Assembly (NCBI RefSeq): GCF_002860325.1
Contig: NZ_PKOJ01000006.1
Coordinates: forward strand, 1 to 64,000
DNA: 64,000 nucleotides
Source: Neptunicoccus cionae
GTDB lineage: Bacteria; Pseudomonadota; Alphaproteobacteria; Rhodobacterales; Rhodobacteraceae
Reading direction: 5' to 3'
The notes beneath the pieces were generated by a model, which saw only the letters and a program-made list of their open reading frames with translations, ran no database searches and was not told the DNA's origin. The translations under genes were made by a program, and so were the position numbers. Of this stretch, positions 1-19,315 are shown in pieces (within the stretch, counting starts at the first letter, position 1; each line of letters starts with the position of its first letter).

Positions 1-482
1 TCCTCCTCAAGATCAGCCGCACTCTCCGCAACATCAGCGAGCAGACCGTCGACATCGTCTGCCTCTTCGTCTACAGGAGCTTCAGACGCCAGACCTGCGA
101 GCAGAGCATCGGTGCCGTTGTCAATCCCGTTGTTCTCCGGCGCATTTGCTGCCAGATCTGACAGGAGGCTGTCCGTATCATCCGGCGCTTCTACTTCCTG
201 CGGCGCAGCCGCGGCCAGACTGGCGAGCACGTCCGAGGTTTGATCTTCCTCCGGCACATCCTCTGGAACGGATCCTGCAAGACCGGACAGAACCTCTGCC
301 GTATTATCCTCTTCCAGCCTATCGTCTGGCGCACCGGCGGCCATCGCCGCGAGAATGTCTGAACTGGTATCGAGCGGACCCTCATCCTGTGGGGCGGTGG
401 CTGCCAGTCCGGCAAGAACCGCATCAGTTCGGTCTGCGCCGTCTTCCGGCAGCGGGGCTGCCGCCTTCATCGCGGACAGGAT
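1..482 (-). repeat. 63-bp coding repeats (21-aa period) in the second TssB
   Basis: At least eight in-frame copies encode a pattern of hydrophobic-Leu-x-x-hydrophobic-Ala-x-x-Ala-Pro followed by about 11 acidic or polar residues. The spacing is exactly 63 bp for the first seven copies and 60 bp before the last visible one. The DNA copies have diverged, so this is an old repeat kept by protein-level selection, not a recent slippage product. It continues beyond the window edge. Confidence 0.9.
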
Positions 483-995
483 GCCATCCACTTCCGCAGA
501 GCCGCTTTCCACGGCCTCGCCAGCCAGCAGCGCACGAAACGCGGTCGGATTTTGCAAAAGGGACAGGATCATGTCCTCGGCACCGGTCTTTCCGTCCATA
601 TAGGTCATCAGGTTGGACAACTGCGTGCGCGCATCGAGCAGCTTTTTCAGAGGCTCGATCTTGCTGGCAATGGCAGCGGGCGAGAAATCCTCCATCCGCT
701 CGAACGTCAGATCGACCGGCAGGTTTCCTTCACCGCTCAGCGTATTCGGGACCGAAAACACTGCACGGGGTTTCATCGCTTTCATGCGGCTGTCAAAATT
801 GTCTACGTCCACTTCAAGGAACTTACGGTCTTCAACACTCCCCTGCGAGACCTCGGAGGCACCGGAAAGATCCGCCATGACCCCCATCACAAAGGGCAAC
901 TGAACCTTTTTCTCGGCGCCGTAAACTTCCACGTCGTATTCGATCTGGACGCGGGGGGCGCGGTTCCGGGCGATGAATTTCTGACTATCCGCCAT
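1..995 (-). CDS. TssB-type sheath protein with C-terminal 21-residue repeats, partial (second TssB)
   Basis: The frame opens with ATG at 995 and has no stop before the left edge, so about 331 residues are visible and the C-terminus is missing. Residues 1-150 are a TssB/VipA contractile-sheath subunit that closely resembles the TssB at 12356-12865, including an identical first 40 residues. From residue 172 the protein becomes a tandem repeat of a short hydrophobic helix, an Ala-Pro and an acidic linker. Copies start at residues 172, 193, 214, 235, 256, 277 and 298, exactly 21 residues apart, and at 318. Ordinary TssB proteins end near residue 165-180. The start overlaps the end of the sodium-channel gene by 11 bp, so the two are probably co-translated as the tail of the T6SS operon. 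The role of the tail is unknown. The sheath-family assignment is firm. Confidence 0.9.
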   Translation of the reverse strand, partial: MADSQKFIARNRAPRVQIEYDVEVYGAEKKVQLPFVMGVMADLSGASEVSQGSVEDRKFLEVDVDNFDSRMKAMKPRAVFSVPNTLSGEGNLPVDLTFERMEDFSPAAIASKIEPLKKLLDARTQLSNLMTYMDGKTGAEDMILSLLQNPTAFRALLAGEAVESGSAEVDGILSAMKAAAPLPEDGADRTDAVLAGLAATAPQDEGPLDTSSDILAAMAAGAPDDRLEEDNTAEVLSGLAGSVPEDVPEEDQTSDVLASLAAAAPQEVEAPDDTDSLLSDLAANAPENNGIDNGTDALLAGLASEAPVDEEADDVDGLLADVAESAADLEE

Positions 996-1845
996 TTTTT
1001 TCCTCCGCCTGCGCCTTTAAAGCTGCGAGCTGTTGCTGGATTTCCACGAGTTGTTCCTGAACGCGGGCGTTGCCTTCGGACACCACCCCCATGATCCGCT
1101 CCAGTTCCGCATCCTGTTCCTCTTCCACGGCAGCCTGCATCGTGTTGACCAGCAAACCGATAAACAGGTTCAAAACGGCAAAGGCGGTGCAGATGATGAA
1201 AGGGACAAAGAAAGCCCACGCATAAGGGTGCGCTGCCATAACAGGGCGCACGATCCCCATGGACCAGCTTTCCAGCGTCATGATCTGGAACAGCGAATAA
1301 AGCGATGCTCCGACCGATCCGAACCACTGGGGGAAAGTCTCGCCATAAAGCATCGTCGCCATAACCGCGAAGATGTAGAACACGATCGACAGAAGGATCA
1401 CCACCGCGCCCATTCCGGGCATTGCATCAAGCAAAGCCTTGATCACATCGCGCATCTGGGGCACGGCCGAAAGCACCCGCATGGCACGGATCACCCGCAA
1501 GCCGCGCAAAACCCGGAGACTGTCAGAGGCCGGCACCAGCGAGATCGTCACAATGGCCAGATCAAAAATATTCCACGCCGACAGGAAAAAACGCCAGCCA
1601 TAGGCGTAGAGCTTCAACAGCATTTCAACGACGAAAATGACGATCACCACATCGTCAAACAGGGCGAGCAATCCGCCGGTCGCCGCCACAATCCGCTCTG
1701 ATGTGGCGAGGCCAAGGGTAATGGCGTTTACGATGATAATAATAAGGATCGTATTACGCACCAAAGGCGTTTCGATCCACGCAATCATGCGGGCGCGATG
1801 TCCTCTTATGTGTCCCCTGGAATTAAGCTGCGAAGCGTCTGTCAT
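985..1845 (-). CDS. Voltage-gated sodium channel (BacNav, NaChBac family)
   Basis: This 286-residue inner-membrane protein has the full single-domain BacNav layout: six hydrophobic segments, an S4 voltage sensor with arginines every third position (R111, R114, R117, R120, R123), and a pore loop with the selectivity-filter motif TLESWSM (residues 190-196), the Na+-selective signature of the family. The last 45 residues are a heptad-rich coiled coil, as expected for the tetramerisation bundle. Four subunits would form one channel. BacNav proteins are known from roseobacters. What is odd here is the position: between T6SS genes, overlapping the downstream repeat-bearing TssB by 11 bp. Function as a channel is well supported; any link to secretion is inference from context. 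Confidence 0.93.
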   Translation of the reverse strand: MTDASQLNSRGHIRGHRARMIAWIETPLVRNTILIIIIVNAITLGLATSERIVAATGGLLALFDDVVIVIFVVEMLLKLYAYGWRFFLSAWNIFDLAIVTISLVPASDSLRVLRGLRVIRAMRVLSAVPQMRDVIKALLDAMPGMGAVVILLSIVFYIFAVMATMLYGETFPQWFGSVGASLYSLFQIMTLESWSMGIVRPVMAAHPYAWAFFVPFIICTAFAVLNLFIGLLVNTMQAAVEEEQDAELERIMGVVSEGNARVQEQLVEIQQQLAALKAQAEEKNGG

Positions 1846-1921: not shown

Positions 1922-3157
1922 TTAAGCCACAGCATCCACTACGTTATCTACCATACCCTTGACCTCTTTGATCGCGTCCCAAAGGCCTTGGCCCTCGCTC
2001 AGTATGGTGGAAGGATCAAGCTGCTTGAGCTTTTGCAGGGTGGTTTTGTCGTCGATCTCCAACCCGCCGGATTTCATGATTTCCTGCATTTCGTCGAGAA
2101 ACTTCTCCCGTTCCTCCAGTTTGGCTGCCATAGCCGAAACACGCCGTTTTACCGCCATCATTTTGGCCCCTATGGCGACCCCGTCCTTCAGGCCTTTAGC
2201 TGCCTTCATGGCTTTGGTCAGTTTGTCTGCACTTCCCGACAGACTGTCGGTCTTGTGACGGGTTTTGGTGTTGTGGTTTCGATAGGCCACGCGGGCTTTT
2301 TCAACATCCGCCAGCTTTGACTTGATCTTTGCTTGGGTGAATTTCACCACAGCGCCCAAAACTTCCTTTGGGCTTTTCCCCCCCAACACTTCAGCAGACG
2401 TCGCCTTCAATTTCGCAGTCAGGGTCGCCAGTGCCTTTTTCGGGTTCTTAACGTCTATGCCGTTTGTATCGGTCAAGCCGCTGCGCTGGATCGCCTGGTC
2501 AATCGCAGTGCCGCGTTCGTCGAGCATTGCCTTCACGCCAGCAAGCAAGTCCTTGCGCAGTTTGGCCTCGTTTTTGAGTTGCTGCTGCAACTCCTTGCCA
2601 AGCCCGTACAGCTCGGTCACGATGGTTTTGTAAGAACTTGCATCCGCGCCGGAAGTCGCCACCAGCTTGGCAACAGACCCTGCGATCTTCACAAAACCCA
2701 TGGTCACCTTGAAGCCCGTCTTGACCCGCGCTTCTTTAAGAAGCTTGTCCCGCTGGCCTTCCTTCTTCAATGCATCTGCTATCGCCTTGTCAGCTGCACC
2801 TTGTGCGCCGGCGATGGCCTGTTTGATCATTGTATTGGTTGTCTTGGTCATCTCCTGAGCTTGCTTCAGCCCTTTGCCCGAAGGCTGCTGCATCAGAAGA
2901 TCAATTTTTTTGTCGAGCTTGGCCGCTTCCGCTGTGATGATCTTTTCGTAGTCATCAAAAACAGCGCGCCCAACCTTTTCAAGCCGGTCAAAAACCGACG
3001 TTGGCGCCTCTTTCGGTTTCTTGAGCAATCCCGTCGTCGTGATTTCAATTTCCACGTCCACGCGGGATTTCGGGATTTCAATGTACTTTAAACCCGATCG
3101 ATCCCTTATCAGGTCTACTACATAAAACTTTTCTTTACGCGTCGTTTTCTTGGCCAT
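1922..3157 (-). CDS. Uncharacterised Lys-rich helical protein in the T6SS operon
   Basis: I do not recognise this 411-residue protein. It begins with about 45 residues of predicted beta character, then is almost wholly alpha-helical, with many Lys, Ala, Leu and Glu residues and coiled-coil-like stretches. The only moderately hydrophobic run is near residues 151-169, and there is no signal peptide. A strong RBS (GGGAG) precedes ATG at 3157. It lies 29 bp after clpV and upstream of the sodium channel, so it is transcribed with the secretion machine. A cytoplasmic T6SS accessory factor, or an effector (long helices with one central hydrophobic hairpin are seen in alpha-pore-forming toxins), are both possible. 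Neither is shown by the sequence. Confidence 0.8.
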   Translation of the reverse strand: MAKKTTRKEKFYVVDLIRDRSGLKYIEIPKSRVDVEIEITTTGLLKKPKEAPTSVFDRLEKVGRAVFDDYEKIITAEAAKLDKKIDLLMQQPSGKGLKQAQEMTKTTNTMIKQAIAGAQGAADKAIADALKKEGQRDKLLKEARVKTGFKVTMGFVKIAGSVAKLVATSGADASSYKTIVTELYGLGKELQQQLKNEAKLRKDLLAGVKAMLDERGTAIDQAIQRSGLTDTNGIDVKNPKKALATLTAKLKATSAEVLGGKSPKEVLGAVVKFTQAKIKSKLADVEKARVAYRNHNTKTRHKTDSLSGSADKLTKAMKAAKGLKDGVAIGAKMMAVKRRVSAMAAKLEEREKFLDEMQEIMKSGGLEIDDKTTLQKLKQLDPSTILSEGQGLWDAIKEVKGMVDNVVDAVA

Positions 3158-3186: not shown

Positions 3187-5898
3187 CTACCCAAATTCGT
3201 ATGTAAATTCGTCTCCGTCTGTGCTGACGCTCACTGTTTTGACGTCTTCTCCCGCCATCATCTTGCGCAGGAACTCTCCTGATACGGCGGGAAGCAGGCT
3301 GTTGGTCAGGATCGCATCAATCATGCGTCCGCCGCTCTCCACTTCCTGACAGCGGGACACGATCAGATCGACCACCTTGTCGTCATAGGTAAACGGCACG
3401 CCGTGAGTGTCTCTTATCCGTTTGACCACGCGGTTCAGTTGCAGTTTGGTGATCTCGCCGATCATATCGGGGCTGAGCGGGAAGTAGGGAATGGTGACAA
3501 TCCGCCCGAGCAAGGCCGCCGGAAACACCTTCAACAACGGTTCGCGCAGCGCTTTGGCGATGCCTTCGGGTTCGGGCATCAGATCGGGGTCTTTGCACAT
3601 ATCCATAATCAGATCGCTGCCCGCATTAGAGGTCAGCAGGATCAGCGTGTTTTTGAAGTCGATCATCCGGCCCTCGCCGTCTTCCATCACGCCCTTGTCA
3701 AACACTTGAAAGAAGATCTCGTGCACGTCAGAATGGGCTTTCTCCACTTCGTCCAGCAGCACCACGGAATAGGGTTTGCGCCGCACCGCTTCTGTCAGGA
3801 TACCGCCCTCGCCATAGCCCACATAACCCGGAGGCGCGCCTTTCAGGGTGCTGACCGTATGGCTCTCCTGAAACTCCGACATGTTGATGGTGATCATATT
3901 CGCCTCACCGCCATAAAGCGTTTCGGCTATGGCAATGGCGGTTTCTGTTTTGCCGACACCGCTGGTGCCTGCCAGCATGAACACCCCGATCGGCTTGCTG
4001 GGATTGTCCAGCCCGGCCCGCGCGGTTTGCACCCGTTTGGCGATCATCTCCATCGCGTGATCCTGTCCGATCACCCGTTTTTTCAGCGCATCCGCAAGGT
4101 TTAGAACGGTGTTGATCTCGTCCTTGACCATGCGCCCCACAGGAATACCCGTCCAGTCCCCGACCACGCTGGCCACTGCCTGTTCGTCAACGATGGGCAG
4201 GATCAGCGGGCTTTCGCCCTGAACCTCTTTCAATTCTGCGTCCTTGGCTTTCAGATCGGCCAGCAAGACGGCGCGTTCTTCCTCGCTCATCTCGCTGCCT
4301 TCCGGCACCTCTGCGGCCGCCTCGCCCTCTACCGCGCCGCCGTCCCCGCGCAGGGTGGCCCGCAGGTAGAGGATGTCGTCCACGATTTTCTTCTCCGCCT
4401 GCCAACGCTCTGTCAGCCCTTGGAGTCTGTCGGTTTCAGCGTTCAGTTTTTCTTGCGCCTCGGTCTCGCGATCCCCGACATCATATCCGGCGGATTTTTC
4501 CCGCCCGATGATGCCCAGTTCGGTTTCAAGGGCTGCGATCCGCTTTTGGGAATCCTCCACCTCTGCCGGCGTAGCATGTTGTGAAATCCCGACCCGCGCG
4601 CAGGCGGTGTCAATCAGGCTGACGGATTTATCCGGCAACTGGCGTGCCGGAATATAACGCGCCGAAAGCTGCACCGCCGCCTCGATCCCCTCATCGAGCA
4701 CCTGAACGCGGTGGTGTTTTTCCAGCATCCCAACGATACCCCGCATCATCAGGATTGCCTTTTCCACACTGGGTTCGTCCACTTTCACCACCTGAAAGCG
4801 CCGTGTCAGGGCGGGGTCTTTTTCGATGTGTTTCTTGTATTCCGCCCAAGTCGTAGCCCCGATGGTGCGCAGCTCTCCCCGCGCAAGGGCAGGTTTCAGT
4901 AGGTTCGCCGCATCCCCTGTGCCAGCTGCCCCGCCTGCCCCAACCAAAGTGTGGGTTTCGTCGATGAACATGATGATCGGCGTGGTAGAGGACTGCACCT
5001 CTTCGATCACCTGCTTCAGACGGTTTTCAAATTCGCCTTTCATGCTGGCCCCCGCTTGCAGCGCGGCCACGTCCAGTTCCAACAGACGCGCGCCTTGCAA
5101 CATTGGCGGCACGTCTCCTTTGGCAATGCGCAGGGCGAAACCTTCGACCACGGCGGTTTTGCCCACGCCCGCCTCGCCTGTCAGGATCGGGTTGTTCTGG
5201 CGACGGCGCATCAGGATGTCGATCAATTGGCGGATTTCCTCGTCCCGCCCGACGATCTGGTCGATCTCTCCGCTGGCGGCAAGTTCGGTCAGGTCCTTGC
5301 AATACTGCTGCAAGGCTTCCTCTTTGCCCATCGCCGCCGGAGCCATCGCACCCGAAGACTCGCCCGGTTGCGCCCCGGCCCCTGCCCCGATTCCGGTCCC
5401 GTCCTGCGGTGAAAGCCCGTCTTCGGGGGAACCGTCAGTAACTTCGCGGAAGTTATCGAGCAGATCATCCGGCTTTACCTTTTTGAACTCCTCGCTCATG
5501 CCGTTCAACACACTGCGCAAAGACGAGGTTTTCACCATACCAAGGATCAGATGCCCCGTGCGCACCTGCGGGCTTTTATGCGCAAGAGAGGCGTAAACCC
5601 ATGCCCGCTCCACCGCGTTTTCAAGATGTTCGGAGAGGTCGGAAATCGAGGATGCCCCGCGGGGCAAGGCATCAAGCGCGGCGGTCATATCTTTTGCCAC
5701 TTTAGCCGGTTCCAGATCGTAATGCTGGATGATCCTGTGCAGGTCGCTGTCCTGACCCTGTAAAATCTGGTGCATCCAGTGGACCAGTTCCACATAAGGA
5801 TTGCCGCGCATCTTACAGAAAACCGAGGCGCTCTCGATTGCCTGATACCCGAGCTTGTTCAACTTGCCGAAAAGGGCAACGCGGCTGATCTCTGACAT
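3187..5898 (-). CDS. clpV: T6SS sheath-disassembly ATPase ClpV (TssH)
   Basis: This 903-residue AAA+ protein is the hexameric unfoldase that recycles contracted TssB/TssC sheaths. The N-terminal ClpN-type domain covers about residues 1-160 and is followed by a Gly/Ala/Ser-rich linker at 160-195. The first AAA module has Walker A GEAGVGKT (241-248) and Walker B FIDETH; a middle coiled-coil region follows; the second AAA module has Walker A GTSGVGKT and Walker B LLDEVEKAH. Length matches the ClpV branch of the ClpB family, and the T6SS neighbours exclude a general ClpB. ATG at 5898 has an AGGAA RBS. It lies 46 bp after tssG. Confidence 0.97.
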   Translation of the reverse strand: MSEISRVALFGKLNKLGYQAIESASVFCKMRGNPYVELVHWMHQILQGQDSDLHRIIQHYDLEPAKVAKDMTAALDALPRGASSISDLSEHLENAVERAWVYASLAHKSPQVRTGHLILGMVKTSSLRSVLNGMSEEFKKVKPDDLLDNFREVTDGSPEDGLSPQDGTGIGAGAGAQPGESSGAMAPAAMGKEEALQQYCKDLTELAASGEIDQIVGRDEEIRQLIDILMRRRQNNPILTGEAGVGKTAVVEGFALRIAKGDVPPMLQGARLLELDVAALQAGASMKGEFENRLKQVIEEVQSSTTPIIMFIDETHTLVGAGGAAGTGDAANLLKPALARGELRTIGATTWAEYKKHIEKDPALTRRFQVVKVDEPSVEKAILMMRGIVGMLEKHHRVQVLDEGIEAAVQLSARYIPARQLPDKSVSLIDTACARVGISQHATPAEVEDSQKRIAALETELGIIGREKSAGYDVGDRETEAQEKLNAETDRLQGLTERWQAEKKIVDDILYLRATLRGDGGAVEGEAAAEVPEGSEMSEEERAVLLADLKAKDAELKEVQGESPLILPIVDEQAVASVVGDWTGIPVGRMVKDEINTVLNLADALKKRVIGQDHAMEMIAKRVQTARAGLDNPSKPIGVFMLAGTSGVGKTETAIAIAETLYGGEANMITINMSEFQESHTVSTLKGAPPGYVGYGEGGILTEAVRRKPYSVVLLDEVEKAHSDVHEIFFQVFDKGVMEDGEGRMIDFKNTLILLTSNAGSDLIMDMCKDPDLMPEPEGIAKALREPLLKVFPAALLGRIVTIPYFPLSPDMIGEITKLQLNRVVKRIRDTHGVPFTYDDKVVDLIVSRCQEVESGGRMIDAILTNSLLPAVSGEFLRKMMAGEDVKTVSVSTDGDEFTYEFG

Positions 5899-8815: not shown

Positions 8816-9322
8816 CTACATCACCTTGTCGATAACAAGATCACCGTCGGCCACATCCAGACGGGTGCGCAGATAAAGTTCCAGAGGAACCGGCGTGGCC
8901 CAAAGCTCCCCGCGGATGTCCATTGTGATCTGGCTGTCCGCCGCATCCGGCGTAGCCTTGGCCGCTGTGACTTCCAGCGTGCCGGGAATAATGCGGGGTT
9001 CCAGTGCGTAGATCGCCTCCTTGATGGAGGATTCCAGCGTTTTGGCATCGGTCTGCAAAACCTTGCGCCCGGCAATATCGCTGATGCCAAAATTCAGCGT
9101 AGATCGCGCCGCATGTGGATAGAGAGCGGGGTCAATAATCTCTTCGTTATTGGCGGTGTTCAACAACCAGCCAAGATCCCGCAAGATGATTTCACGCAGG
9201 CGGCGCACGTCGATATACCGTTCGCCAGCGGTGTCTTTCGTGTCGGTCGGGGATTTGTCGGTCAACCTGTCCAGCAAGGAGGGTTGCAGCCGTTCCCTGT
9301 CGGAAAGTTCAGTCCGCGCCAT
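8816..9322 (-). CDS. tssE: T6SS baseplate protein TssE (gp25-like)
   Basis: TssE (168 residues) is the gp25/lysozyme-like wedge protein that starts sheath polymerisation. The sequence has the family pattern: SLLDRLTD near the start, RRLREIILRDLGWLLNT, then YPHAARSTLNFGISD, and a late EPRIIPGTLEVT strand containing the conserved EPR motif. ATG at 9322 is preferred over GTG at 9325, because it is the stronger codon and follows a GGGGGCGG stretch. The start lies inside the end of tagJ (14-bp overlap). Confidence 0.95.
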   Translation of the reverse strand: MARTELSDRERLQPSLLDRLTDKSPTDTKDTAGERYIDVRRLREIILRDLGWLLNTANNEEIIDPALYPHAARSTLNFGISDIAGRKVLQTDAKTLESSIKEAIYALEPRIIPGTLEVTAAKATPDAADSQITMDIRGELWATPVPLELYLRTRLDVADGDLVIDKVM

Positions 9323-10124
9323 CACCGCCCCCGACCGCCGAGAGGGAGATACTGCGCAGGTCCATCAGCGCCAGATCTTCGTTGTTAGTCGCAAACAGGC
9401 GCTGCCCGATGCCAAGATAGGTTTCATCCCCCGCTTCAATCCAGTCGGTTTCCCGTGCCAGCATGATCCCTGCCCGTTTTGATTGGGCAGACCCCGGATA
9501 ACGGGTCGGAATAAAGCCCACCACGTCCCCCCCGTTGGCCCATGTGATTTCAACAGGGGTCCAGACCTTGTCGCGCAGATCGCTCGGATCATCAAAGGTC
9601 ATACGTTTGATGTTGGAAAACGGTGCCCAGTAGTAGCGCCCGTTCATCACCAGTTCCAGCATCGGACCAAGGCGCATATCCGCGTCTGCAATCCACTCGA
9701 ACGCTGTACCATCGGCCTCGCCACTCTGGCTCGGGGCTGCTTCGAAGGCTTCGTTCCGCAAGCTCGCGGCCTGCGCTGTGTCGCCTTTGGCGAGCAGTCC
9801 CAGTGACTGGATCATCAGAGCCACCCACTGCGCCGGTTCGCCAAAGATCAACGGTGCGGTTTCACCGGCAAAGACTTTCTCGCGCACCATTTCGCAGGCG
9901 ATTGCCTCGCGGTAGGACTGGACCATCGGCATGGTGTCCGGCGCCATCTCGCCACAGACTTTCAGCTGGGTCAGCGCCCGATCCCATTCGCCGCGGATAC
10001 ACAGCATCTGGAACAGGAAAACCCGAAGTTTGCTGTCGGCTGGGTCCTTACGGATACTGGCGGTCAGGGCGTCATAGGCTGCATCCAGATTGCCCGCCTT
10101 CAAATGGTCGATCGCGTCGCTCAT
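9309..10124 (-). CDS. tagJ: T6SS accessory protein TagJ (ImpE/SciE family)
   Basis: This 271-residue cytoplasmic protein belongs to the ImpE/TagJ family. The first 80 residues are TPR-like (HLKAGNLDAAYDALTASIRKDPAD). The rest is the TagJ domain, with DADMRLGPMLELVMNGRYYW and PFSNIKRMTFDDPSDLRDKVWTP as clear family blocks. In Pseudomonas aeruginosa the homologue HsiE1 binds the N-terminal helix of its TssB partner and ClpV, so the presence of two TssB forms here is relevant. The start at 10124 (MSDAIDHL, preceded by GGGAA) is preferred over the upstream ATG at 10184, whose extra residues do not fit the family. Confidence 0.93.
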   Translation of the reverse strand: MSDAIDHLKAGNLDAAYDALTASIRKDPADSKLRVFLFQMLCIRGEWDRALTQLKVCGEMAPDTMPMVQSYREAIACEMVREKVFAGETAPLIFGEPAQWVALMIQSLGLLAKGDTAQAASLRNEAFEAAPSQSGEADGTAFEWIADADMRLGPMLELVMNGRYYWAPFSNIKRMTFDDPSDLRDKVWTPVEITWANGGDVVGFIPTRYPGSAQSKRAGIMLARETDWIEAGDETYLGIGQRLFATNNEDLALMDLRSISLSAVGGGDGAD

Positions 10125-10156
10125 GAAAATTCCCGGTTCTAATAAATTCAGGGAGT

Positions 10157-10218
10157 GGAAAGGCCACGAAAGCCGCCTTTCCAAATGCTGTTCCGGTGCG
10201 CGAAAAATGCGCCACCGG
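10157..10218 (-). other. Two stem-loops in the hcp-tagJ gap
   Basis: The 105-bp gap holds two imperfect hairpins: arms at 10157-10163 with 10176-10182, and at 10193-10201 with 10209-10218 (one bulge). Neither is followed by a clear T-run on the minus strand. They fit the common pattern of hcp mRNA being stabilised or processed away from the lower-level baseplate genes downstream, but this is inference. Confidence 0.35.
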
Positions 10219-10859: not shown

Positions 10860-12353
10860 TCAGCCCTTTTCAGAGGGCAGTTTGGAAACCAGACGCAAGG
10901 ACACGGAAAGACCTTCCAGCTGGTAATGGGGCCGCAGGAAAAACTTGGAGGAGTAATAGCCGGGATTGCCCTCGACCTCTTCCACCACCACTTGTGCTGC
11001 TGCCAACGGACGCTCGGCTTTGGTTGCTTCGGATGAAATTTCCGGAGTCATATCAACGTAATTGCTGATCCATTTTTGCAGCCAGGCCTCCATATCTCCA
11101 CGTTCCTTGAAGGAACCGACCTTATCGCGCACGATACATTTAAGATAATGCGCAAAGCGGCAGGTGGAGAAGAGATAGGGCAAACGCGCACCAAGGTTTG
11201 CGTTGGCCGTTGCATCCGGATCGTCGTATTCCGCCGGTTTGTGCAGGGACTGGGCGCCAATAAAGGCAGCCATATCACTGTTCTTGCGGTGGATCAGGGG
11301 CATCAGACCGTTCTTGGCCAGCTCTGATTCACGACGGTCCGAAATTGCAATTTCCGTCGGGCATTTCATATCAACGCCGCCATCATCGGACGGGAAGGTA
11401 TGGGTGGGCAGGTTTTCCACCGCACCGCCGGATTCAATACCACGGATACGGGTGCACCAGCCGTAATGCTTGAACGAGCGTGTGATATTGGTTGCCATAC
11501 CATAGGCCGCGTTGACCCATGAATAATGGCCGCTGTCCGCGCCTTCCGTGTCTTCTTCAAAGGCGAATTCTTCGACCGGATCGGTCTTTTCCCCGTAAGG
11601 GTGCCGGCCAAGGAAACGGGGCATGGCGAGAGCAAGATACTGGCTGTCTTCGCTTTCGCGCAGGGACCGCCACGCCGCATATTCCGGTGTCGAGAAAATC
11701 TTGGTCAGATCGCGGGGGTTGGCCAGTTCGCTCCAGCTGTCCATCTGCATCAGGGAAGGTTCCGCACCGGTAATAAAGGGTGCGTGGCTGGCCGCAGCAA
11801 TTTTGGCCATTTCCGAAAGCAGCTGCACATCCGGCGGGGAATGGTCAAAGTGATAATCCCCGACCAGACAACCGTAAGGCTCGCCACCGAACTGTCCGTA
11901 TTCCTCTTCGTAGAGTTTCTTGAAGATGGGGGATTGGTCCCATGCCGCGCCCTTGAACTTCTTCAGCGTCTTGCCGAGATCCTTCTTGGACACGTTCAGC
12001 ACGCGGATTTTCAACATCTCGTCGGTTTCGGTGTTGTTCACCAGATAATGCAGGCCGCGCCAGCTGCTTTCCAGCTTCTGGAATTCCTCGTTGTGCAGGA
12101 TTTCGTTTACTTGCGCTGTCAGGGTTTTATCAAGTTCCGCGATAATCGCCTCGATCGAGCGCAGCGCATCGTCCGACACCAGCCCCGTATTGGCAAGCGC
12201 CTGTTCTGCAAGGGTTTTAACCGCTTCTTCCACCGCCGTTTTGGCCGTGTCGGATTTGGGTCGGAACTCTTTTTGCAGCAGGGATGCAAATTCGTCATTG
12301 GCAAAGACCGTACTGCCGGCTTGGCCTTCGACTTGTGCTTCAGCTTCAGCCAT
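10860..12353 (-). CDS. tssC: T6SS sheath large subunit TssC (VipB)
   Basis: TssC (497 residues) forms the contractile sheath with TssB. Clear family blocks include LESSWRGLHYLV near residue 94, the central FDHSPPDVQLLSEMAKIAAASHAPFI, and the C-terminal NPGYYSSKFFLRPHYQLEGLSVSLRLVSKLP. The N-terminal segment DEFASLLQKEF is in the position of the helix that ClpV recognises in VipB. The start is 2 bp after the tssB stop, so the two subunits are translationally coupled. Length is normal. Confidence 0.97.
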   Translation of the reverse strand: MAEAEAQVEGQAGSTVFANDEFASLLQKEFRPKSDTAKTAVEEAVKTLAEQALANTGLVSDDALRSIEAIIAELDKTLTAQVNEILHNEEFQKLESSWRGLHYLVNNTETDEMLKIRVLNVSKKDLGKTLKKFKGAAWDQSPIFKKLYEEEYGQFGGEPYGCLVGDYHFDHSPPDVQLLSEMAKIAAASHAPFITGAEPSLMQMDSWSELANPRDLTKIFSTPEYAAWRSLRESEDSQYLALAMPRFLGRHPYGEKTDPVEEFAFEEDTEGADSGHYSWVNAAYGMATNITRSFKHYGWCTRIRGIESGGAVENLPTHTFPSDDGGVDMKCPTEIAISDRRESELAKNGLMPLIHRKNSDMAAFIGAQSLHKPAEYDDPDATANANLGARLPYLFSTCRFAHYLKCIVRDKVGSFKERGDMEAWLQKWISNYVDMTPEISSEATKAERPLAAAQVVVEEVEGNPGYYSSKFFLRPHYQLEGLSVSLRLVSKLPSEKG

Positions 12354-12355
12354 CG

Positions 12356-12865
12356 TTATTCCTCCCCTGCGTCATCTTTTTGTTTGGGTGCAGCACTCAG
12401 CGCTTTCATCAGCGCGGGGTCCTGTATGATTTTGGCCATAAGATCCTCGGCGCCGGTTTTTCCGTCCATATATGTCATCAGGTTGGAAAGCTGGGTGCGC
12501 GCATCGAGCAGTTTCTTCAGCGGCTCGACCTTGCTGGCAATCGCTGCCGGACTGAAATCATCCATGCTTTCGAAAGTGATATCCACTGCCATATTGCCTT
12601 CGCCGGTCAGCGTGTTGGGCACAGTAAAGGCTGCACGGGGCTTCATGGATTTCATGCGGTCGTCGAAATTGTCCACATCCACTTCAAGAAACTTGCGGTC
12701 GGCCACAGCGGGCAGTGGCTCTTCCGATTTACCGGACAGATCGGCCATGACACCCATCACGAACGGCAGTTGCACCTTCTTTTCAGCGCCGTAGACTTCG
12801 ACATCATATTCGATCTGAACGCGGGGGGCCCGGTTGCGGGCGATAAATTTCTGGCTGTCAGCCAT
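12356..12865 (-). CDS. tssB: T6SS sheath small subunit TssB (VipA)
   Basis: TssB (169 residues, the usual size) pairs with TssC in the sheath. Family blocks are VQIEYDVEVYGAEKKVQLPFVMGVMADL at the N-terminus, DFSPAAIASKVEPLKKLLDARTQL in the middle and an acidic end. MADSQKF at 12865, preceded by GGAGA, is chosen over the ATG at 12925 because it matches the start of the second TssB. The gene lies between tssA and tssC. Compared with the protein at 1-995 it lacks the repeat tail. Confidence 0.97.
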   Translation of the reverse strand: MADSQKFIARNRAPRVQIEYDVEVYGAEKKVQLPFVMGVMADLSGKSEEPLPAVADRKFLEVDVDNFDDRMKSMKPRAAFTVPNTLTGEGNMAVDITFESMDDFSPAAIASKVEPLKKLLDARTQLSNLMTYMDGKTGAEDLMAKIIQDPALMKALSAAPKQKDDAGEE

Positions 12866-12954
12866 AAGAGCCGTCTCCTCTGTTATTAACTTTCCGGTGC
12901 CGTTTGAACCGGCATCTGATTTCACTTGGGGTCTTAAAAAATTTAGTCGTATTC

Positions 12955-13998
12955 TTATTCGTATTCTTCAGAAGAGAGGCCACCAATGGTTGCCACCTCT
13001 GCTATACCGCTCGACGCCATATCTTTCATAATCGTGATAAAATCCGCCGAAACCAATCGCTTGGCCCGTCTAAGGAAGATCGGAACCGGACTGGATGGTT
13101 CGTTACGCGCGTAATATTCAAGCATCAGATCAATCGCGCGCAGAACATCATTTGTTGAATTGATACCGCTGACACCGGCTGCAGCCGGTGCACCACCTGC
13201 TTGCGATGCCTGATCGTCTTCGATCCCGTCAGCCACGCCTTCGACAGCTTGCGGTGCAGCCTCACCGAGACATTCGGCAATGACCGCCTGCCCTGTTTTC
13301 AGCAACACCTGCAAGGGCGCGAAATCCGGCCCCTGTCCGGGCACATGTTCCGCAAGGATCGCATCGATGGCTGCCGTATGCGCCAGCGCAGCAGCGATAC
13401 CCTCGCGGATTGCCGTCATTTCCTCTTCCGGCGTGTCCTTTAATGCCGCGCCGACCGCTGCCATGTCGGGCGGGTTGTCCATATCCGCCGGCGCGACGAT
13501 CTCTCCCTTGGCGACAGAAACATGGCGCAAGGAAAACCGCCCCATCATCTTGCTCTCGCTCAACGGAGCGCGACGCAACTGGCGCAACACTGTGGCATCG
13601 TCCACCAGTCCGACCAGTGCGTTCACCCGTTCCGTGGGGTCGTTGTCGTCATCTGCGTCAAGCTGCGGATGAACCGTGTCCCAATACTCCTCTAATGCAC
13701 GTCGTATGTAATCAAGAACCTGCGCGAAATAGGGGTAACCCTTGCGGGCCAAACCGGCTTCGGCCAGATAAACCGCAATCCGCAAGTCCATCGTCTGTTC
13801 CAGCAGAGACTCGCCCAGCTTCAGGACTTCGGCGTAATCTGCTTCTTCAGCATCAATGACCTTGTCACCGACCTGCTGTTCGCCTTTTGCAGTGGCAGCG
13901 ATCGCAAGATCCGAGAAGGCAGCGTCGTATTCCAGATCAGGGCCCGAGGGCTCTTCCCCGTCAAATCCCGCCAACAGTGTGTCCAAATTCAAACTCAC
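12955..13998 (-). CDS. tssA: T6SS assembly protein TssA
   Basis: TssA (347 residues) carries the ImpA_N domain at its N-terminus (LDTLLAGF then EEPSGPDLEYDAAF) and a short C-terminal region after a Gly/Ala linker at about 270-290. TssA proteins recruit the baseplate and prime tube and sheath growth. The start is probably GTG at 13998 with a GAAGG RBS 8 nt before it, giving MSLNLDTLL as in relatives. The TTG at 14013 has no RBS. It is the first gene of the minus-strand operon. Confidence 0.93.
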   Translation of the reverse strand: MSLNLDTLLAGFDGEEPSGPDLEYDAAFSDLAIAATAKGEQQVGDKVIDAEEADYAEVLKLGESLLEQTMDLRIAVYLAEAGLARKGYPYFAQVLDYIRRALEEYWDTVHPQLDADDDNDPTERVNALVGLVDDATVLRQLRRAPLSESKMMGRFSLRHVSVAKGEIVAPADMDNPPDMAAVGAALKDTPEEEMTAIREGIAAALAHTAAIDAILAEHVPGQGPDFAPLQVLLKTGQAVIAECLGEAAPQAVEGVADGIEDDQASQAGGAPAAAGVSGINSTNDVLRAIDLMLEYYARNEPSSPVPIFLRRAKRLVSADFITIMKDMASSGIAEVATIGGLSSEEYE

Positions 13999-14311
13999 GT
14001 TATCAACCTTCAAAAATAGAGAAAGCCACGTTTAGAGAGCCGCATTAAATGGCTAATATTAAAGAAAACTTGGCTTATTAGGTACTTATTGGATACTTAG
14101 TAAATTAACAAAAACCGTAGTTGCCTTTGGGGAACCACGCAAGAATTAATCGCCAAAACAGTGATTTTCGCGACTCTTTCTTTTACTTTTCAATTGAAAG
14201 GCAGTTTATCAACTTGACAACTTGGCAAGTAAATTATGCCGCCTTATAAATGAATCAGATGGGGATTACCCTGACAGGGATTAAGCCGGATTCCGGCGCT
14301 AGGATCATTAG
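13999..14311. promoter_or_regulatory. AT-rich divergent promoter region of the T6SS locus
   Basis: This 313-bp gap separates tssA (minus) from the envelope module (plus) and is much more AT-rich than its surroundings. No gene is visible. A tandem 11-bp near-repeat (ATTAGGTACTT then ATTGGATACTT, 14077-14098) and a plus-strand promoter (14222-14250) are the only clear elements. I could not place a convincing sigma-70 or sigma-54 promoter for tssA. Confidence 0.7.
14222..14250 (+). promoter_or_regulatory. Sigma-70 promoter for the M15 peptidase / kinase module
   Basis: TTGGCA (14222-14227), a 17-nt spacer and TATAAA (14245-14250) give a good housekeeping promoter about 60 bp before the ATG at 14312. 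A dyad (ACTTG...CAAGT) overlaps the -35 box and may be an operator. Confidence 0.6.
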
Positions 14312-15142
14312 ATGAAATGGGCGATATTAATTACGCTGCTGGTTCTTGCCGTGCTGACTGCACCGGTGGGCTGGTACTTTGCCCAAACACATTCGCGCAC
14401 GGATGACGCGCTCAAGATTGCCGCGCTTGAAGAACAACTTGCCGTGCAGGCGCAGAAGGCCAAAGATCTTACTATAGACCTGAACGCGCTTGTCTCTCGC
14501 GTCACACTGCTGGAAGAAACCGGTGTATCGGAACCCGTCATCCAGTCCTTTGCAGATCCCGCAGAAGAACGAACTGACTCCCTTGCCGACAGTTTCGCGC
14601 AAGTGGTGCTGATTGCCGACCGGCGCGAGGTGAATAAGGGGCTCTCGAATTCCGGGTCTTCCTACCTGAAAAACCTTTTCGGCCTGCCCCGCCCCGACCT
14701 GAGCGAGGCCTGCCAGTCGATGACCAATCCACTGCTGAAGGATCTGGTCAAAACCGAGAGCGTTGGACCGATCCGTGTCACAATGATTGAACCGGCAATC
14801 CTGTCCCTACGACAGGTGTTTCGCAACGTGAAGATATTCGAACCGGAACTTTACGAACGAATTAACACTGCCGGCTCTCTTTGCGTGCGGCACATCCGTG
14901 GACGTCCGGGTTCAGTGTCAACACACGCTTACGGGTTGTCGGTAGATCTGAACATAGACGGCAAGCTTGATACGCTTGGCGATGGCAAAACCCAGCTTGG
15001 CCTTATCCTGCTGGCAGATTTCTTCAACAAGGAAGGCTGGTATTGGGGGGCGAGCTTTGGACGAGAGGACTCCATGCATTTTCAAGTGTCCAAAGAGAAA
15101 ATCAATCAATGGCTCCGTCAGGGGTTGATCCGTACCAAATAG
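14312..15142 (+). CDS. Membrane-anchored M15-type zinc peptidase
   Basis: This 276-residue protein has an N-terminal membrane anchor (residues 3-22), a short coiled coil (33-70), and a C-terminal zinc peptidase domain of the M15/LAS type. The ligand pattern is S-x-H-(6)-D with H205 and D212, and the second histidine block SMHF with H256. The W-Y-W-G-A pattern near 243 is typical. Such enzymes cut peptide cross-links in peptidoglycan from the periplasmic face. As the first gene divergent from tssA, it may open the wall for T6SS assembly, like TagX of Acinetobacter. A D,D-carboxypeptidase role is the alternative. Confidence 0.85.
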   Translation: MKWAILITLLVLAVLTAPVGWYFAQTHSRTDDALKIAALEEQLAVQAQKAKDLTIDLNALVSRVTLLEETGVSEPVIQSFADPAEERTDSLADSFAQVVLIADRREVNKGLSNSGSSYLKNLFGLPRPDLSEACQSMTNPLLKDLVKTESVGPIRVTMIEPAILSLRQVFRNVKIFEPELYERINTAGSLCVRHIRGRPGSVSTHAYGLSVDLNIDGKLDTLGDGKTQLGLILLADFFNKEGWYWGASFGREDSMHFQVSKEKINQWLRQGLIRTK

Positions 15143-15250
15143 TCGTGAAAGGTTAAGAGGTTCGTCGGCATTCATTGCCTTCATTTATTACTGAACGCAT
15201 CGTTGCTGACAGACTTTGTAGAATAAATTTTATTTAGTGGAAGTTGCCAG

Positions 15251-16462
15251 ATGTTTCTGTGTCGGAAATCTATAGCTGTCCTGTGTCTGCTGATTGCCAG
15301 CGGATCCGGTGCTGTTGCGCAAGGAACATCCGCGCCCGGACCGGGCCTCAGTTCCACCGAGTTCAATACAATCGAAGAGGCTATCAGTGCGCTTGGCACA
15401 GACACCTACAAGACCATTCGCTCCAGCTACACTGAAACTGCTGGCGCGACCTTTACTTTTACGGCTCCAAGCGAAACGCTGACACTGCGCTATCTGAAAG
15501 ATAGAACCGGCGTGGCACTGCGCGATGATACAGGTGCGCTGATCTCACGGTTTAACGGGGGCACCCGAAGCGAAAGCGAGGCGCTTCTGGCCGCTTTCCT
15601 CAGAGAACGATATGCCACTGATCCCGATGCCCTGAAACTGACTGTAGCCAATACGCCCGAAGATCCGGTTGCAGGTAATCCGGCCTCGCTGATGGCAAGA
15701 ATGGCGGATGCGAGCTTTACCTCTGGTACCGATGTCGGCCCTTCTCCGCTGACAGGGGGCAGTCGTGCAAGGGGTACGGCAAGTTACAACCACTTGGGAA
15801 TCTCCCTGCAAACCGGACGGTATTCCGGTCCGGGATTCTCGGCCAATGTCACGTCCCTGCCGCTCAGTTTTGCAATGCCGCTTGATGATCCGCGCTGGGC
15901 CATCAAGATCCACGCGCCGCTCGGCTTTTCTACAATCAACGGACAGGACTATGTCTCCGGATCGGTTGGTGTCGGTTTGCGGATGCCTGTAACGGACAAC
16001 TGGACCCTGACACCTGAACTGCGCGTCGGGGCACTGCGCGACAGCAGCCGCGGATTGACCACCCGACTGGCCAATGCCTCGATCATCTCCAATTACCGTA
16101 TGGATCTGCGCAACGGCTATGGGTTGGTGTTTGGCAATGCATTGACCTATTCCAAATCGCTTGGCTCCGGCAACAGCGGCTATGATCTGGCCAATACGAT
16201 CAACAAGAACGGTGTAGAATTCTCCGGCCCCTTCCAGCGCAGCCTTTATGGTCTGCCCACCAACTGGCAGCTCTCTCTGGTTCACACTAAAGTTGCAGGC
16301 AGCCCGACCTATATCGACGAATGGACCGATGTGTCCCTGTCCCTTGGAACGATTGGTTCCAAGAACGGGGTAACATGGGACAGTGTGCGGATCGGCTTGA
16401 CCTATACCCACGCCAATCGGGGTGTGCGCGGGCTCAACATCAACTTCGGCTACGAGTTTTAG
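15251..16462 (+). CDS. Predicted outer-membrane beta-barrel protein
   Basis: The 403-residue product has a clear signal peptide (cleavage after AVAQ, about residue 24), a globular N-terminal region to about residue 150, then a series of alternating polar-hydrophobic strands and a terminal aromatic residue (NFGYEF), the signature of a barrel inserted by the Bam complex. I do not recognise a named family. It lies 3-9 bp before the caspase-like gene, depending on that gene's start, so the two are co-translated. Its place in a T6SS-linked operon is unusual. Confidence 0.75.
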   Translation: MFLCRKSIAVLCLLIASGSGAVAQGTSAPGPGLSSTEFNTIEEAISALGTDTYKTIRSSYTETAGATFTFTAPSETLTLRYLKDRTGVALRDDTGALISRFNGGTRSESEALLAAFLRERYATDPDALKLTVANTPEDPVAGNPASLMARMADASFTSGTDVGPSPLTGGSRARGTASYNHLGISLQTGRYSGPGFSANVTSLPLSFAMPLDDPRWAIKIHAPLGFSTINGQDYVSGSVGVGLRMPVTDNWTLTPELRVGALRDSSRGLTTRLANASIISNYRMDLRNGYGLVFGNALTYSKSLGSGNSGYDLANTINKNGVEFSGPFQRSLYGLPTNWQLSLVHTKVAGSPTYIDEWTDVSLSLGTIGSKNGVTWDSVRIGLTYTHANRGVRGLNINFGYEF

Positions 16463-16471
16463 GAGATGGTC

Positions 16472-18082
16472 ATGACCCTTCGCACAGTCAGAAATTCCGC
16501 TCCGGCCTTCCCGGTTGTTGCGCTGGTCCTGACTTTGCTGTTGCTTCTCGCCGGTCCGGTGCTCGCCAAAGAACGTGTCGCCCTTCTGATTGGCAACAGT
16601 CGGTACGACAATTCAGCCCTGTCCCTGAAGAATCCGGCCAACGATGTCGCTGCCATGGCGCAAAAGCTTGCCGCGCTCGGCTTTGTCGTGATCTCGGCGC
16701 AGGATGCGTCCCGTACCGATATGGACCGCGCCTTGGGCGCCTTTGAACGGCAGTTGAAGGGCGCAGAGCTCGGGCTGTTCTTTTATGCCGGTCACGGCAG
16801 TCAGGCGGGGGGTGAAAACTTCTTACTGGCAACTGATTTTCAGGGGACAACCTCCGCCGCCGTCAAACAATATTCCCTGACACTTGGTCGGGTGCGCGAC
16901 GCCTTTGCCAAGGCCAAACCCGATGCGGGAATTGTGATCCTTGACGCCTGTCGCGACAATCCGCTGGCCATCACTCTGGAGCAAACGGGCAAGCCGGTTG
17001 GGCTGGCACGGGCGAAATCCGCGACCGGACTACTGGTGGCCTATGCGACAGATCCGGGTAATGTGGCGTTTGAGGGGACAGGCAATAACTCCATCTTCAC
17101 CACGGCCTTGCTGAAACACATCAACGAGCCCGGACTGGACGTGCGACTGATGTTCGGGCGGGTGCGTCAGGATGTTGTGCTGCGCACACGCGGGGCACAG
17201 GTTCCATGGGTCGAGGAAAGCCTGATTGGTGAGTATTCCATGAACCCGTCGATGGCGTCGGGCGGGCGTGAAGCGATGATCGCGCGGGACATCGAAATGT
17301 GGCGTAGCGTCAGCGGCGAGACCACACCACAAGCCTATCAAGCCTATCTTGACGCTTTCCCAAGCGGCATGTTCCGGGACTTTGCGGCCCAACGGATTGC
17401 AAGGCTCAGCTATTCGGCCAATCTGACGCAAGAAGATAAACCTTTGAAGGTGGCAGAACTAGATGTGACCAGCGACACCAGCAAAATTGCCGCCGCACTC
17501 GGCATTCTCGGGTTCGCCCCGCAAAGCCGAAGTGCACCGGATATCGAGGAACTGGAACTGGCTGCTGCCGCCTATCGTGCCTCGCTCGGAAAAGATGCAG
17601 CACTGACACAGGACAATCTCTTTGCCGATGCCTCGCGGCTGCTGCTTTATCTTGGCGGCAATGTAGGCAAGCAGATACAGGTGGATATCGCCGCCTTGTC
17701 CAGCATCGACCAGACGCTGATCGTAGCGCGGGATGCCTATGAAGAACTGGAACAGGTTGCCGCCGGAGACGAAAGCGCAAAGCCCATACTTGAACAGGCC
17801 CGCGCAGATATCGCCGCAATAGAGCGCGCCCAGACCGAAGTGCTGGCCCAACTGGATCAGGAACGGGCCTATTACGAAGAACTGATGGAACAGGCCAATG
17901 CGAATTTCCCCGATTATATGGTGGAACGTACAATCGGGATCGCGGTGACGCGCTCTGCCCCTGTGGACGACGAAAAACTCGCCAGTCGCGCCAAACTGTT
18001 CCTCAAACATGTCAATCAGGCAGCCGATGCCGAAACCCAAGGATCCTATCAATGGCTTTCCGATTTCCTGCCTCAAAGCTGA
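16472..18082 (+). CDS. Secreted caspase-like (peptidase C14) protein
   Basis: This 536-residue protein has a signal peptide (residues 1-32, ending VLAK) and a caspase p20-like domain (33-260) with the His-Cys dyad intact: H108 in YAGHGS and C150 in LDACRDNP. The C-terminal 250 residues are helical and unassigned. Bacterial caspase homologues cut after Arg or Lys, or act as scaffolds. The signal peptide places it in the periplasm. ATG at 16472 lies 6 nt after AGGAG and is preferred over ATG at 16466, which would abut the RBS. The 3' end overlaps the next gene by 31 bp. Confidence 0.9.
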   Translation: MTLRTVRNSAPAFPVVALVLTLLLLLAGPVLAKERVALLIGNSRYDNSALSLKNPANDVAAMAQKLAALGFVVISAQDASRTDMDRALGAFERQLKGAELGLFFYAGHGSQAGGENFLLATDFQGTTSAAVKQYSLTLGRVRDAFAKAKPDAGIVILDACRDNPLAITLEQTGKPVGLARAKSATGLLVAYATDPGNVAFEGTGNNSIFTTALLKHINEPGLDVRLMFGRVRQDVVLRTRGAQVPWVEESLIGEYSMNPSMASGGREAMIARDIEMWRSVSGETTPQAYQAYLDAFPSGMFRDFAAQRIARLSYSANLTQEDKPLKVAELDVTSDTSKIAAALGILGFAPQSRSAPDIEELELAAAAYRASLGKDAALTQDNLFADASRLLLYLGGNVGKQIQVDIAALSSIDQTLIVARDAYEELEQVAAGDESAKPILEQARADIAAIERAQTEVLAQLDQERAYYEELMEQANANFPDYMVERTIGIAVTRSAPVDDEKLASRAKLFLKHVNQAADAETQGSYQWLSDFLPQS

Positions 18083-18762
18083 TCGCAGGCGCCCTGACAC
18101 CACTTTTGCTGGTAGGCCTCTCCGCCTGTGCGGTCTCGCCGAACGACCCGATGGGCGGGCAGCGGGCCTTTAGCTGGCAACCGGAAACCGCCGAGGAAAA
18201 GGCCCTGCGCCATAAGGCCGAGGCACTGCAAGCCACGGTCGGCGAAGGCGGTATGGCAGGGTTTGCCGTGGGTGCCTTGCTTGGCGGGTTGACCGGCGGG
18301 ATGCAGGGTGCCTTTGCCGGTGCGCGTCTGGGCCGGTTTATCGGCGCGGCCTCCGGTGTTTATGTACGCGGCCTGCAAGAGGATTTTGCAAATCGCGAGG
18401 CACAGCTTAACCAGCTGGCCGCCGATCTGGAAGCCAACAACCGCGATCTGGAAAGCGCAATCGCCACCATGCGCGCCGTACTTGTCCAGCAGCGGGCAAG
18501 ACTGGCGGCAGCGCGGGCTACAGGCAACGGCATAGCCATACGTCAGGCACAAGAACAGGCTTCCGGCAATCTGGCCGTGATGAACAAAGCGATTGAAGCA
18601 GCCGTCCAGCGACAGGATGTTTTTGGCGAGGCCCGCTCCCTTCTCGCAGTGGACAGTGCGCCAAGCGCCGCCACAGCCCCCGCCGCAGAACGCTATTCCG
18701 CGCTGGCGGACCGCATTTCAGCCATGCGCTCCATCGCAACAACGCTGGTTTCGGAGATCTGA
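18052..18762 (+). CDS. Lipoprotein with glycine-zipper segment
   Basis: The 236-residue product has a type II signal with lipobox LSAC (Cys at about residue 26), so it is a lipoprotein. Residues 65-105 hold a glycine-zipper (GGMAGFAVGALLGGLTGG and following), often seen in proteins that insert in or associate with membranes. The rest is a long helical coiled-coil region. ATG at 18052 has AAGGA upstream and lies within the end of the caspase-like gene. No named family was recognised. Confidence 0.8.
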   Translation: MAFRFPASKLIAGALTPLLLVGLSACAVSPNDPMGGQRAFSWQPETAEEKALRHKAEALQATVGEGGMAGFAVGALLGGLTGGMQGAFAGARLGRFIGAASGVYVRGLQEDFANREAQLNQLAADLEANNRDLESAIATMRAVLVQQRARLAAARATGNGIAIRQAQEQASGNLAVMNKAIEAAVQRQDVFGEARSLLAVDSAPSAATAPAAERYSALADRISAMRSIATTLVSEI

Positions 18763-18763
18763 T

Positions 18764-19243
18764 ATGCCCCATCACGCCCAACGCCAACGTTCTTTATTTT
18801 CGCGCAGCCTGACCCTTTGCGCAGCCCTGCTGCTGACCAGCGCCTGCACCCAGAGGGGCAATCTCGATGATCCGGCCTACGGCGGCTTTTTTAACGGGAT
18901 CGAGAATATCTCGGACGGCACCTATGACGCGCGGATCGCAACCCGCGAAGAACGGGTTTCAGCCCTGCAACAGCGACAGCAACGCCTGCTGGTAGAGCGC
19001 AACTCCCTGTCCCGTCAGGTCTCTGCCCACCAGAACGCACTGGCGCGCTTGCAGCAGGACATTATCGTGTCAAAAATCCGGATCGGAGAGCAGAACATCA
19101 CGCCGCAAACGCAAGCCCGCATTTCAAAAGCACTCAGCCCGCCCCCCTCGGGGCAGACTGATGCAGAGCGGCTGGCAAACCTGCAAAAGACCATCGCGGA
19201 CACCCGCAAATTGGCAGAAACACTGGCAAAACTTGCAGGATGA
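18764..19243 (+). CDS. Small coiled-coil lipoprotein
   Basis: The start is ATG at 18764, 1 bp after the previous stop and preceded by GGAG. The 159-residue product has a lipobox LTSAC (Cys near residue 28) followed by a helical, Gln- and Arg-rich coiled coil (residues 60-110). It looks like a companion of the glycine-zipper lipoprotein before it. Two lipoproteins next to a membrane kinase recall TagQ-type lipoproteins in T6SS phosphorylation pathways, but there is no sequence match that I can assert. Confidence 0.75.
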   Translation: MPHHAQRQRSLFSRSLTLCAALLLTSACTQRGNLDDPAYGGFFNGIENISDGTYDARIATREERVSALQQRQQRLLVERNSLSRQVSAHQNALARLQQDIIVSKIRIGEQNITPQTQARISKALSPPPSGQTDAERLANLQKTIADTRKLAETLAKLAG

Positions 19244-19315
19244 CGAAAAGCTGCGCTACTCTCTTGCTGAAGGACACGGTATTCACCGTGTCGCCCCCAT
19301 GAAAAGGACCACCCA

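Follow-up and report, generated by a model that had tools for sequence, protein, structure and literature searches.

Why would a type VI secretion system (T6SS) gene cluster that already encodes the sheath subunit TssB contain a second TssB domain, and why would that domain run on into a long series of regularly spaced repeats? The question arises at the left edge of a 64,000-nucleotide stretch of the Neptunicoccus cionae genome (contig NZ_PKOJ01000006.1, here C14; the whole stretch is called the window), where a minus-strand frame of 331 amino acids (positions 995 to 3) stays free of stops up to the window edge. A first-pass annotation, made from the letters alone, described a complete TssB domain followed by a patterned repeat extension, and this observation is sound: the domain scores 190 bits against PF05591 and the periodicity lies beyond chance (z score, 9.7). 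Its reading of the extension as the C-terminal tail of a whole TssB protein, with no described counterpart, did not survive. The window starts right at the left end of contig C14, so the frame is cut; single frames in relatives run to 1305, 1358, and 1393 amino acids. Judged by these relatives, the repeats form a linker within a longer fusion that has another sheath-like module at its far end, and the protein is a member of the TssCL family, an architecture published in 2022 (PMC9515649).

The frame probably encodes the N-terminal part of a TssCL protein

TssCL was described from Leisingera sp. ANG-M7 as a protein of 1684 amino acids with two VipA domains and one VipB domain, encoded in a group 3 T6SS cluster together with impE and ordinary tssB and tssC genes; its first VipA domain is given as 86.2% identical to the TssB of the cluster and its second as a weak match (PMC9515649). 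The same source reports TssCL from Alphaproteobacteria only, other roseobacters included. Neptunicoccus has the corresponding parts: its first VipA domain is close to the cluster TssB (81% amino acid identity), a weak second VipA domain and then one VipB domain lie on another contig, C15, and separate tssB and tssC genes are present. There are three PF05591 matches in the genome, namely, the separate TssB, the fused TssB, and the weak match that opens C15. The fused domain also matches TIGR03358 (186 bits), and its frame, at more than 331 amino acids here and 942 to 1940 amino acids in named relatives, exceeds the size of a stand-alone TssB (about 160 to 200 amino acids). Contig C15 opens inside an 818-residue frame comprising acidic repeats, the weak VipA domain (PF05591, 28.5 bits), the VipB domain (PF05943, 142 bits), and an acidic tail; VipB_2 was not found in this frame. 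Against TIGR03355, the C-terminal half scores 151 bits, below the 271.5-bit TssC score. The next gene, at position 2510 of the C15 locus (L004), is vgrG, as named by gene order.

Judged from relatives, C14 and C15 would meet within this one gene. A PF05591 search of 101 genomes recovered three relatives in which a single frame carries one full and one weak match to TssB: G058 (1305 amino acids), G004 (1358 amino acids), and G037 (1393 amino acids). G004 belongs to the same genus; its frame holds all three domains, and its C-terminal module is 95% identical to that of Neptunicoccus. In G016, a stretch of N letters (four X residues) interrupts the frame, and the two parts read separately as they stand. 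The fused frame is also open in two plasmid records described as complete. In these records (L180, 15595 to 19707; L182, 16309 to 19719), the listed TssCL coding region starts at open-frame residue 289 or 251, within the linker, so that in both (2/2) the TssB part falls outside the coding region, and the product is named a large sheath subunit, the plasmid gene table being incomplete. Among the 22 best rows of an annotation comparison, 19 list an ion transporter as the only feature under the match to TssB and repeats. With annotated coding regions beginning inside the linker in both plasmid records checked, the family is easily missed. A separate internal start for a free module, from a methionine that follows a GGAGG-like stretch ahead of the C15 module (near position 565 of L004, noted by eye), was considered and is doubtful: it is absent from G037, and such a stretch is a weak sign because GAG-rich acidic codons yield it by chance.

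Conservation of the fused TssB domain

Across 27 genomes, the fused TssB is 77 to 92% identical to the separate TssB of the same genome. Amino acid identity within these pairs equals or exceeds DNA identity in 25 genomes and falls below it in G343 and G389, which is consistent with constraint at the protein level. An HsiB1-like N terminus, SSQKFIARNRAPRVQ, which marks the TagJ-binding class of TssB, is present in all 27 fused and in 35 of 37 separate TssB proteins. The exact pattern recurs in 43 of 48 named fusions, a set that omits L066 and L085, and the remaining 5 deviate at one position. (G334 was left out of these fused counts, of the column comparison of fused and separate TssB given further below, and of the fused group in the next tree, its two copies both being labeled fused by the length rule.) In solved sheaths, the N-terminal TssB segment connects protomers (PMC5797969), and in Pseudomonas aeruginosa it is described as also binding TagJ (PMC4239648). 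The fused TssB retains this segment, along with the hydrophobic side of the helix that binds TssC, and should thus pair with TssC. The suggestion that TagJ might be involved stands in part, in that the fused TssB matches the TagJ-binding peptide over roughly its first 20 residues; as a role for the repeats, it does not hold.

In a tree of TssB, the fused label of 27 rows requires 5 changes, versus 21.2 after shuffling, and most of these rows stand on longer branches; 36 of the 61 inner branches are open, and the starred branches force at least 3 changes. The fused TssB of G462 clusters with its own separate TssB. A single origin of the fused TssB without later exchange is not demonstrated by this tree.

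The repeat linker

The first-pass annotation placed the repeat starts correctly, at residues 172, 193, 214, 235, 256, 277, 298, and 318; the spacing is 21 six times and then 20. Over residues 161 to 331, identity at lag 21 is 0.347, versus 0.112 in shuffled sequences, and none of 5000 shuffles matched the observed repeat identity at any lag from 5 to 40. The first 207 residues of the C15 frame are acidic repeats, mostly with a period of 13 (lag-13 identity, 0.51). Among relatives, the linker, measured from the end of the TssB match to the start of the module match, is 176 to 1212 residues long; acidic residues make up 22 to 41% and basic residues at most 5% of it (50 linkers). A motif profile seeded with the window units and run on 51 linkers (the 50 named ones plus the window) found 1111 sites with a hydrophobic residue, Leu (99%), two small or acidic residues, and Leu (88%), most commonly spaced by 21, 20, 19, or 22 residues. 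The linkers of L041, L044, L045, L047, L048, and L116 have just 2 or 3 sites each. Judged by internal identity, some arrays are recent, such as that of Tateyamaria Alg231-49 (L050), where lag-19 identity is 0.79 across the first half of the linker.

We also considered the linker as a series of phosphothreonine sites for the FHA domain of TagH. At the main candidate position in the linkers, Thr and Ser are equally frequent (17% each), and at the adjacent position they reach 16% and 8%; with Thr equal to Ser at the main position, the idea is unsupported as a general rule. Confidence in the linker was low in the AlphaFold2 model described below. As a separate observation, several DDLLG-like acidic motifs were seen by eye in the linker of the TagH FHA protein itself (L004, 5552 to 7150), and they look like the fusion repeats.

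The C-terminal module

For both the single-chain TssB'-TssC' module and the cluster TssC, the closest solved relative is P. aeruginosa TssB1/TssC1 (5N8N). The module gives no match to the N-terminal TssB segment, and the gp25-like domain PF18945 (VipB_2) was found in 0 of 80 module relatives. Profile matches and modeling show the parts of the protein, their order within one frame in relatives, and a last module with a predicted sheath-protomer fold that lacks the lattice-linking regions. An AlphaFold2 model of a whole short-linker fusion (alignment of 29 rows, 14 of them fused) reached a predicted local distance difference test score of 68 and a predicted template modeling score of 0.60; docking of TssB onto the module in cis was considered, and the model is too uncertain to decide it.

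The H1-T6SS of P. aeruginosa (TssB1/TssC1) resembles the Neptunicoccus system in having the same EFASLL and ClpV1 classes and differs in that no TssCL is reported for H1 (PMC9515649). The single-chain sheath proteins of phages and extracellular injection systems are 7 to 16% identical to the module, which differs from them in its T6SS origin, its missing C-terminal domain, and its acidic tail. Another apparent counterpart is Agrobacterium TssC40/ImpD, likewise a second TssC-like sheath protein beside an ordinary TssC in Alphaproteobacteria (PMC3702570). In alphaproteobacterial genomes, we found 10 cases of a second TssC gene placed immediately behind tssC, which is the imp-type position. All 10 score higher with ordinary TssC than with the TssCL-module family, and the five scanned have VipB plus VipB_2 and no VipA. 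The C-terminal half was accordingly rejected as an ImpD/TssC40 protein, given its opposite domain content and its different place, after ClpV; the ImpD type is defined here from the 5 scanned relatives rather than from Atu4340. A Rhizobium binae plasmid has one tssC. Genome G571 holds a free-standing TssB'-TssC' protein (509 amino acids; L223, 2026 to 3555) and an imp-type second TssC on another contig (L217, 516 to 2054), so the two kinds coexist.

Distribution of fused and free-standing modules

A profile of the C-terminal module (A1), whose rows include the Neptunicoccus genome (G000), G037, and G058, was run against 394 genomes of the family and gave a strong match (E ≤ 2e-178) in 40. Thirty of these matches lie in frames of at least 981 amino acids, 9 lie in frames of 554 to 746 amino acids, and 1 is the cut Neptunicoccus frame. 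A TssB domain was present in the same frame in all 25 of the long frames fetched (of 30) and in none of the 9 short ones. Among the best 80 named loci of at least 440 confirmed relatives, a set that overlaps with the preceding one, 50 frames hold TssB plus module, 8 are cut upstream by a contig end, and 22 are labeled short. One of the last, L057 (1186 amino acids), has a partial TssB match and was counted as fused in the module tree and in the tail analysis; the 8 cut loci were grouped with the fused ones in the tail count and placed in no group in the tree. Fused forms in this set come mostly from relatives labeled Roseobacteraceae or Paracoccaceae and also from Roseibium, Cohaesibacter, and a Rhizobium. 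Short forms occur in Rhodospirillales, Acetobacteraceae, and some Rhodobacterales and also on contigs that carry the bin label Planctomycetota (4) or Verrucomicrobiota (1); these five come from metagenome-assembled genomes, and the phylum is that of the bin. On a module tree made by a quick method, a minimum of 4 changes accounts for the fused label, versus a shuffled mean of 18.5, a pattern that fits a few gains and some losses.

In the module tails, all 59 rows that are fused or cut have at least two motif copies plus a terminal motif, as do 20 of the 21 short rows, the sole miss being a row cut by a contig end. The tails hold 173 motif copies, versus 8.2 in shuffled tails, for a pattern picked after the tails had been viewed. 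The terminal tail motif, ELAALL, resembles the EFASLL of TssC.

The words repeat, linker, disorder, and intrinsic are absent from the main text of PMC9515649, and our literature search found the name TssCL in no other paper. Four points described here go beyond that main text: the repeats of the linker, the absence of lattice parts from the module, module relatives that stand free in other phyla, and the short motif copies in the module tail.

Proposed role of TssCL at the sheath

The best explanation, to which we assign a probability of roughly 0.4, is that the protein joins the sheath by its TssB end and holds a non-polymerizing sheath-like module on a tether, probably at a sheath end. The protein would be laid out as TssB, a long acidic linker of motif units of about 20 residues, the single-chain TssB'-TssC' module, and an acidic tail with related short motifs. 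The N-terminal TssB would pair with ordinary TssC and join the sheath as a minor subunit, and the flexible linker would tie the last module to it, serving as tether and multicopy docking site and not as part of the lattice. Because it has neither the gp25-like domain at the C terminus nor a match to the TssB segment at the N terminus, the module should be unable to hand the lattice on, and its most likely place would thus be an end of the sheath, either the first ring at the baseplate or the distal end, where it could help to start, stabilize, or stop the sheath. Fluorescent tags on TssB are usually placed at the C terminus. In other species, TssB carrying sfGFP forms dynamic sheaths (PMC7896307). 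Systems with a short TssA are reported to have no terminal sheath anchor, TagB or TagJ being used at the baseplate instead. A more specific proposal, which we hold to be quite unlikely as it stands, is that TssCL is a tethered terminator or starter of the sheath, a stripped protomer on a motif-studded linker of fast-changing length that sets where or how far the sheath grows in T6SSs with a short TssA and without a TagA-type anchor; the 352-amino-acid TssA here is putatively short, and no search for TagA was made in the genome. For sheath starting, stopping, and holding in systems without a TagA anchor, TssCL could offer a direct handle, combining a lattice-competent TssB with a module without lattice-joining parts.

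Several points weigh against a tethered module at the sheath end. The halves of the fusion lie on two contigs in Neptunicoccus itself, and the inability of the module to join a lattice is deduced from the parts that it is missing. Divergence between fused and separate TssB is greatest in the last third (columns 111 to 150, 69% versus 88%; columns 151 to 158, 39% versus 83%), which may mean altered pairing with TssC, and TagJ binding alone could account for the strict conservation of the N terminus of the fused TssB. The fusion model is uninformative on docking. Free-standing modules without any TssB exist, one of them in the same genus (G019, 655 amino acids), so the module can do without a TssB tether. 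The literature search turned up no experiment on TssCL.

Among the alternatives, the one closest to the first-pass annotation has the repeats recruit the disassembly machine: ClpV or TagJ would bind the repeated helices, and sheaths that are old or broken would be dismantled. The hydrophobic-L-x-x-hydrophobic core of the repeats does have the spacing of LLDEIM, the ClpV motif of Vibrio cholerae (PMC4239648), the terminal ELAALL is like the EFASLL of TssC, and the TagJ-binding N terminus is kept in every fused TssB counted. However, the likeness is short and was noticed by eye rather than statistically, and the ClpV-binding class defined by an uncharged ClpV groove and an LLDEIM-type TssC motif is not the one found here: the ClpV in the window has R6 and D87, and the cluster TssC has EFASLL. 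In ClpV1, R6 and D87 are the residues that block the groove, and the EFASLL class of P. aeruginosa HsiC1 is described as being without the LLDEIM motif; HsiC1 is bound by full-length ClpV1 and not by the ClpV1 N domain, and removal of the HsiC1 N terminus leaves binding intact (PMC4239648), so contact with other parts of ClpV is possible. ClpV recruitment through a likeness to the DEFASLLQKEF segment of TssC, as first suggested, is therefore unsupported, and the residues that would block the groove weaken the ClpV idea. TagJ, for its part, binds an extended N-terminal stretch of TssB and not helices of this type (PMC4239648). On balance, recruitment of the disassembly machine by the repeats is improbable.

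The linker might instead be a multivalent scaffold for another T6SS component, such as TssA, TssK, or TagH, gathering baseplate or sheath parts while the sheath modules only anchor it. Such a scaffold is favored by the same type of motif being kept in the tails when the module stands free, in members assigned to three phyla; we nevertheless find it doubtful, as no partner emerged from the analysis and its phosphothreonine-FHA version met equal Thr and Ser frequencies (17% each) at the main position. Restraint of assembly, in which TssC or TssB would be kept from the lattice by the free TssB and by the half that resembles TssC until firing is licensed, as an inhibitor or a store, would agree with the pairing positions kept in the fused TssB and the lattice-joining parts missing from the module; yet nothing here is specific to inhibition, and one gene would need to match abundant TssB and TssC, making this very unlikely. 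That no fusion protein is made at all, because a frameshift or misassembly joined two genes or because there are two separate starts, is the sort of artifact that split contigs and coding regions opening at residue 289 or 251 could hint at. We consider it extremely unlikely, because the same frame is open in 50 of the 80 best named loci, from many assemblies, and in the two plasmid records described as complete and because amino acid identity is not below DNA identity in 25 of 27 TssB pairs. Judged by relatives, then, the frameshift or assembly error that the first-pass annotation had named as its possible undoing was not found.

Gene neighborhood

The features are collected in the table. The gene order is TssA, TssB, TssC, Hcp, TagJ, TssE, TssF, TssG, ClpV, an unknown gene, the ion channel, the fusion, VgrG, TagH, TssK, TssL, and TssM. 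It is found in full or in part in relatives, where tblastn often misses Hcp and the unknown gene; the short-form loci L111, L114, and L117 deviate from it.

Table. Features of the TssCL gene and the T6SS cluster in the window and at contig C15
Feature	Position	Strand	Evidence or remark
C15 opening part of the frame (repeats onward)	L004, 1-2457		Acidic repeats and further sheath domains
Start of repeat linker, 8 units, spacing 21 (last 20), cut by contig end	3..515	-	Lag-21 identity, z 9.7; motif profile
TssB/VipA domain, complete, N terminus of TssCL fusion	525..971	-	PF05591, residues 9-157, 190 bits
Ion channel (Ion_trans), directly upstream of the fusion, overlaps its start	985..1845	-	PF00520, 143 bits
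411-amino-acid protein, same operon	1922..3157	-	No Pfam/NCBIfam match
ClpV/TssH, P. aeruginosa ClpV1 type (R6, D87)	3187..5898	-	
TagJ/ImpE	9309..10184	-	PF07024, 152 bits
Ordinary TssC (VipB + VipB_2), N-terminal EFASLL	10860..12353	-	
Ordinary separate TssB	12356..12925	-	81% identical to fused TssB domain
TssA, 352 amino acids (ImpA_N)	12955..14013	-	PF06812

An Ion_trans gene, an unusual companion in a T6SS operon, separates ClpV from the module in 66 of the 76 fused loci and in 10 of the 22 short ones. Named loci and other regions overlap (e.g., L090 and L034, whose contigs are both 258969 long), so these 98-locus neighbor counts hold some genomes twice, and the sets are not independent. 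The 411-amino-acid protein was found by tblastn in the same interval in only 13 of 76 fused loci and 1 of 22 short loci, and L180 and L182 have a hypothetical protein of similar size in its place; judged by these searches, it seems to be fast diverging. Adjoining the cluster, positions 14312 to 22518 of the window encode, by eye, a metallopeptidase, a caspase-like protein, a Ser/Thr kinase, and an OmpA-family protein, and annotated genes of similar kinds stand at the opposite end of the cluster in L180.
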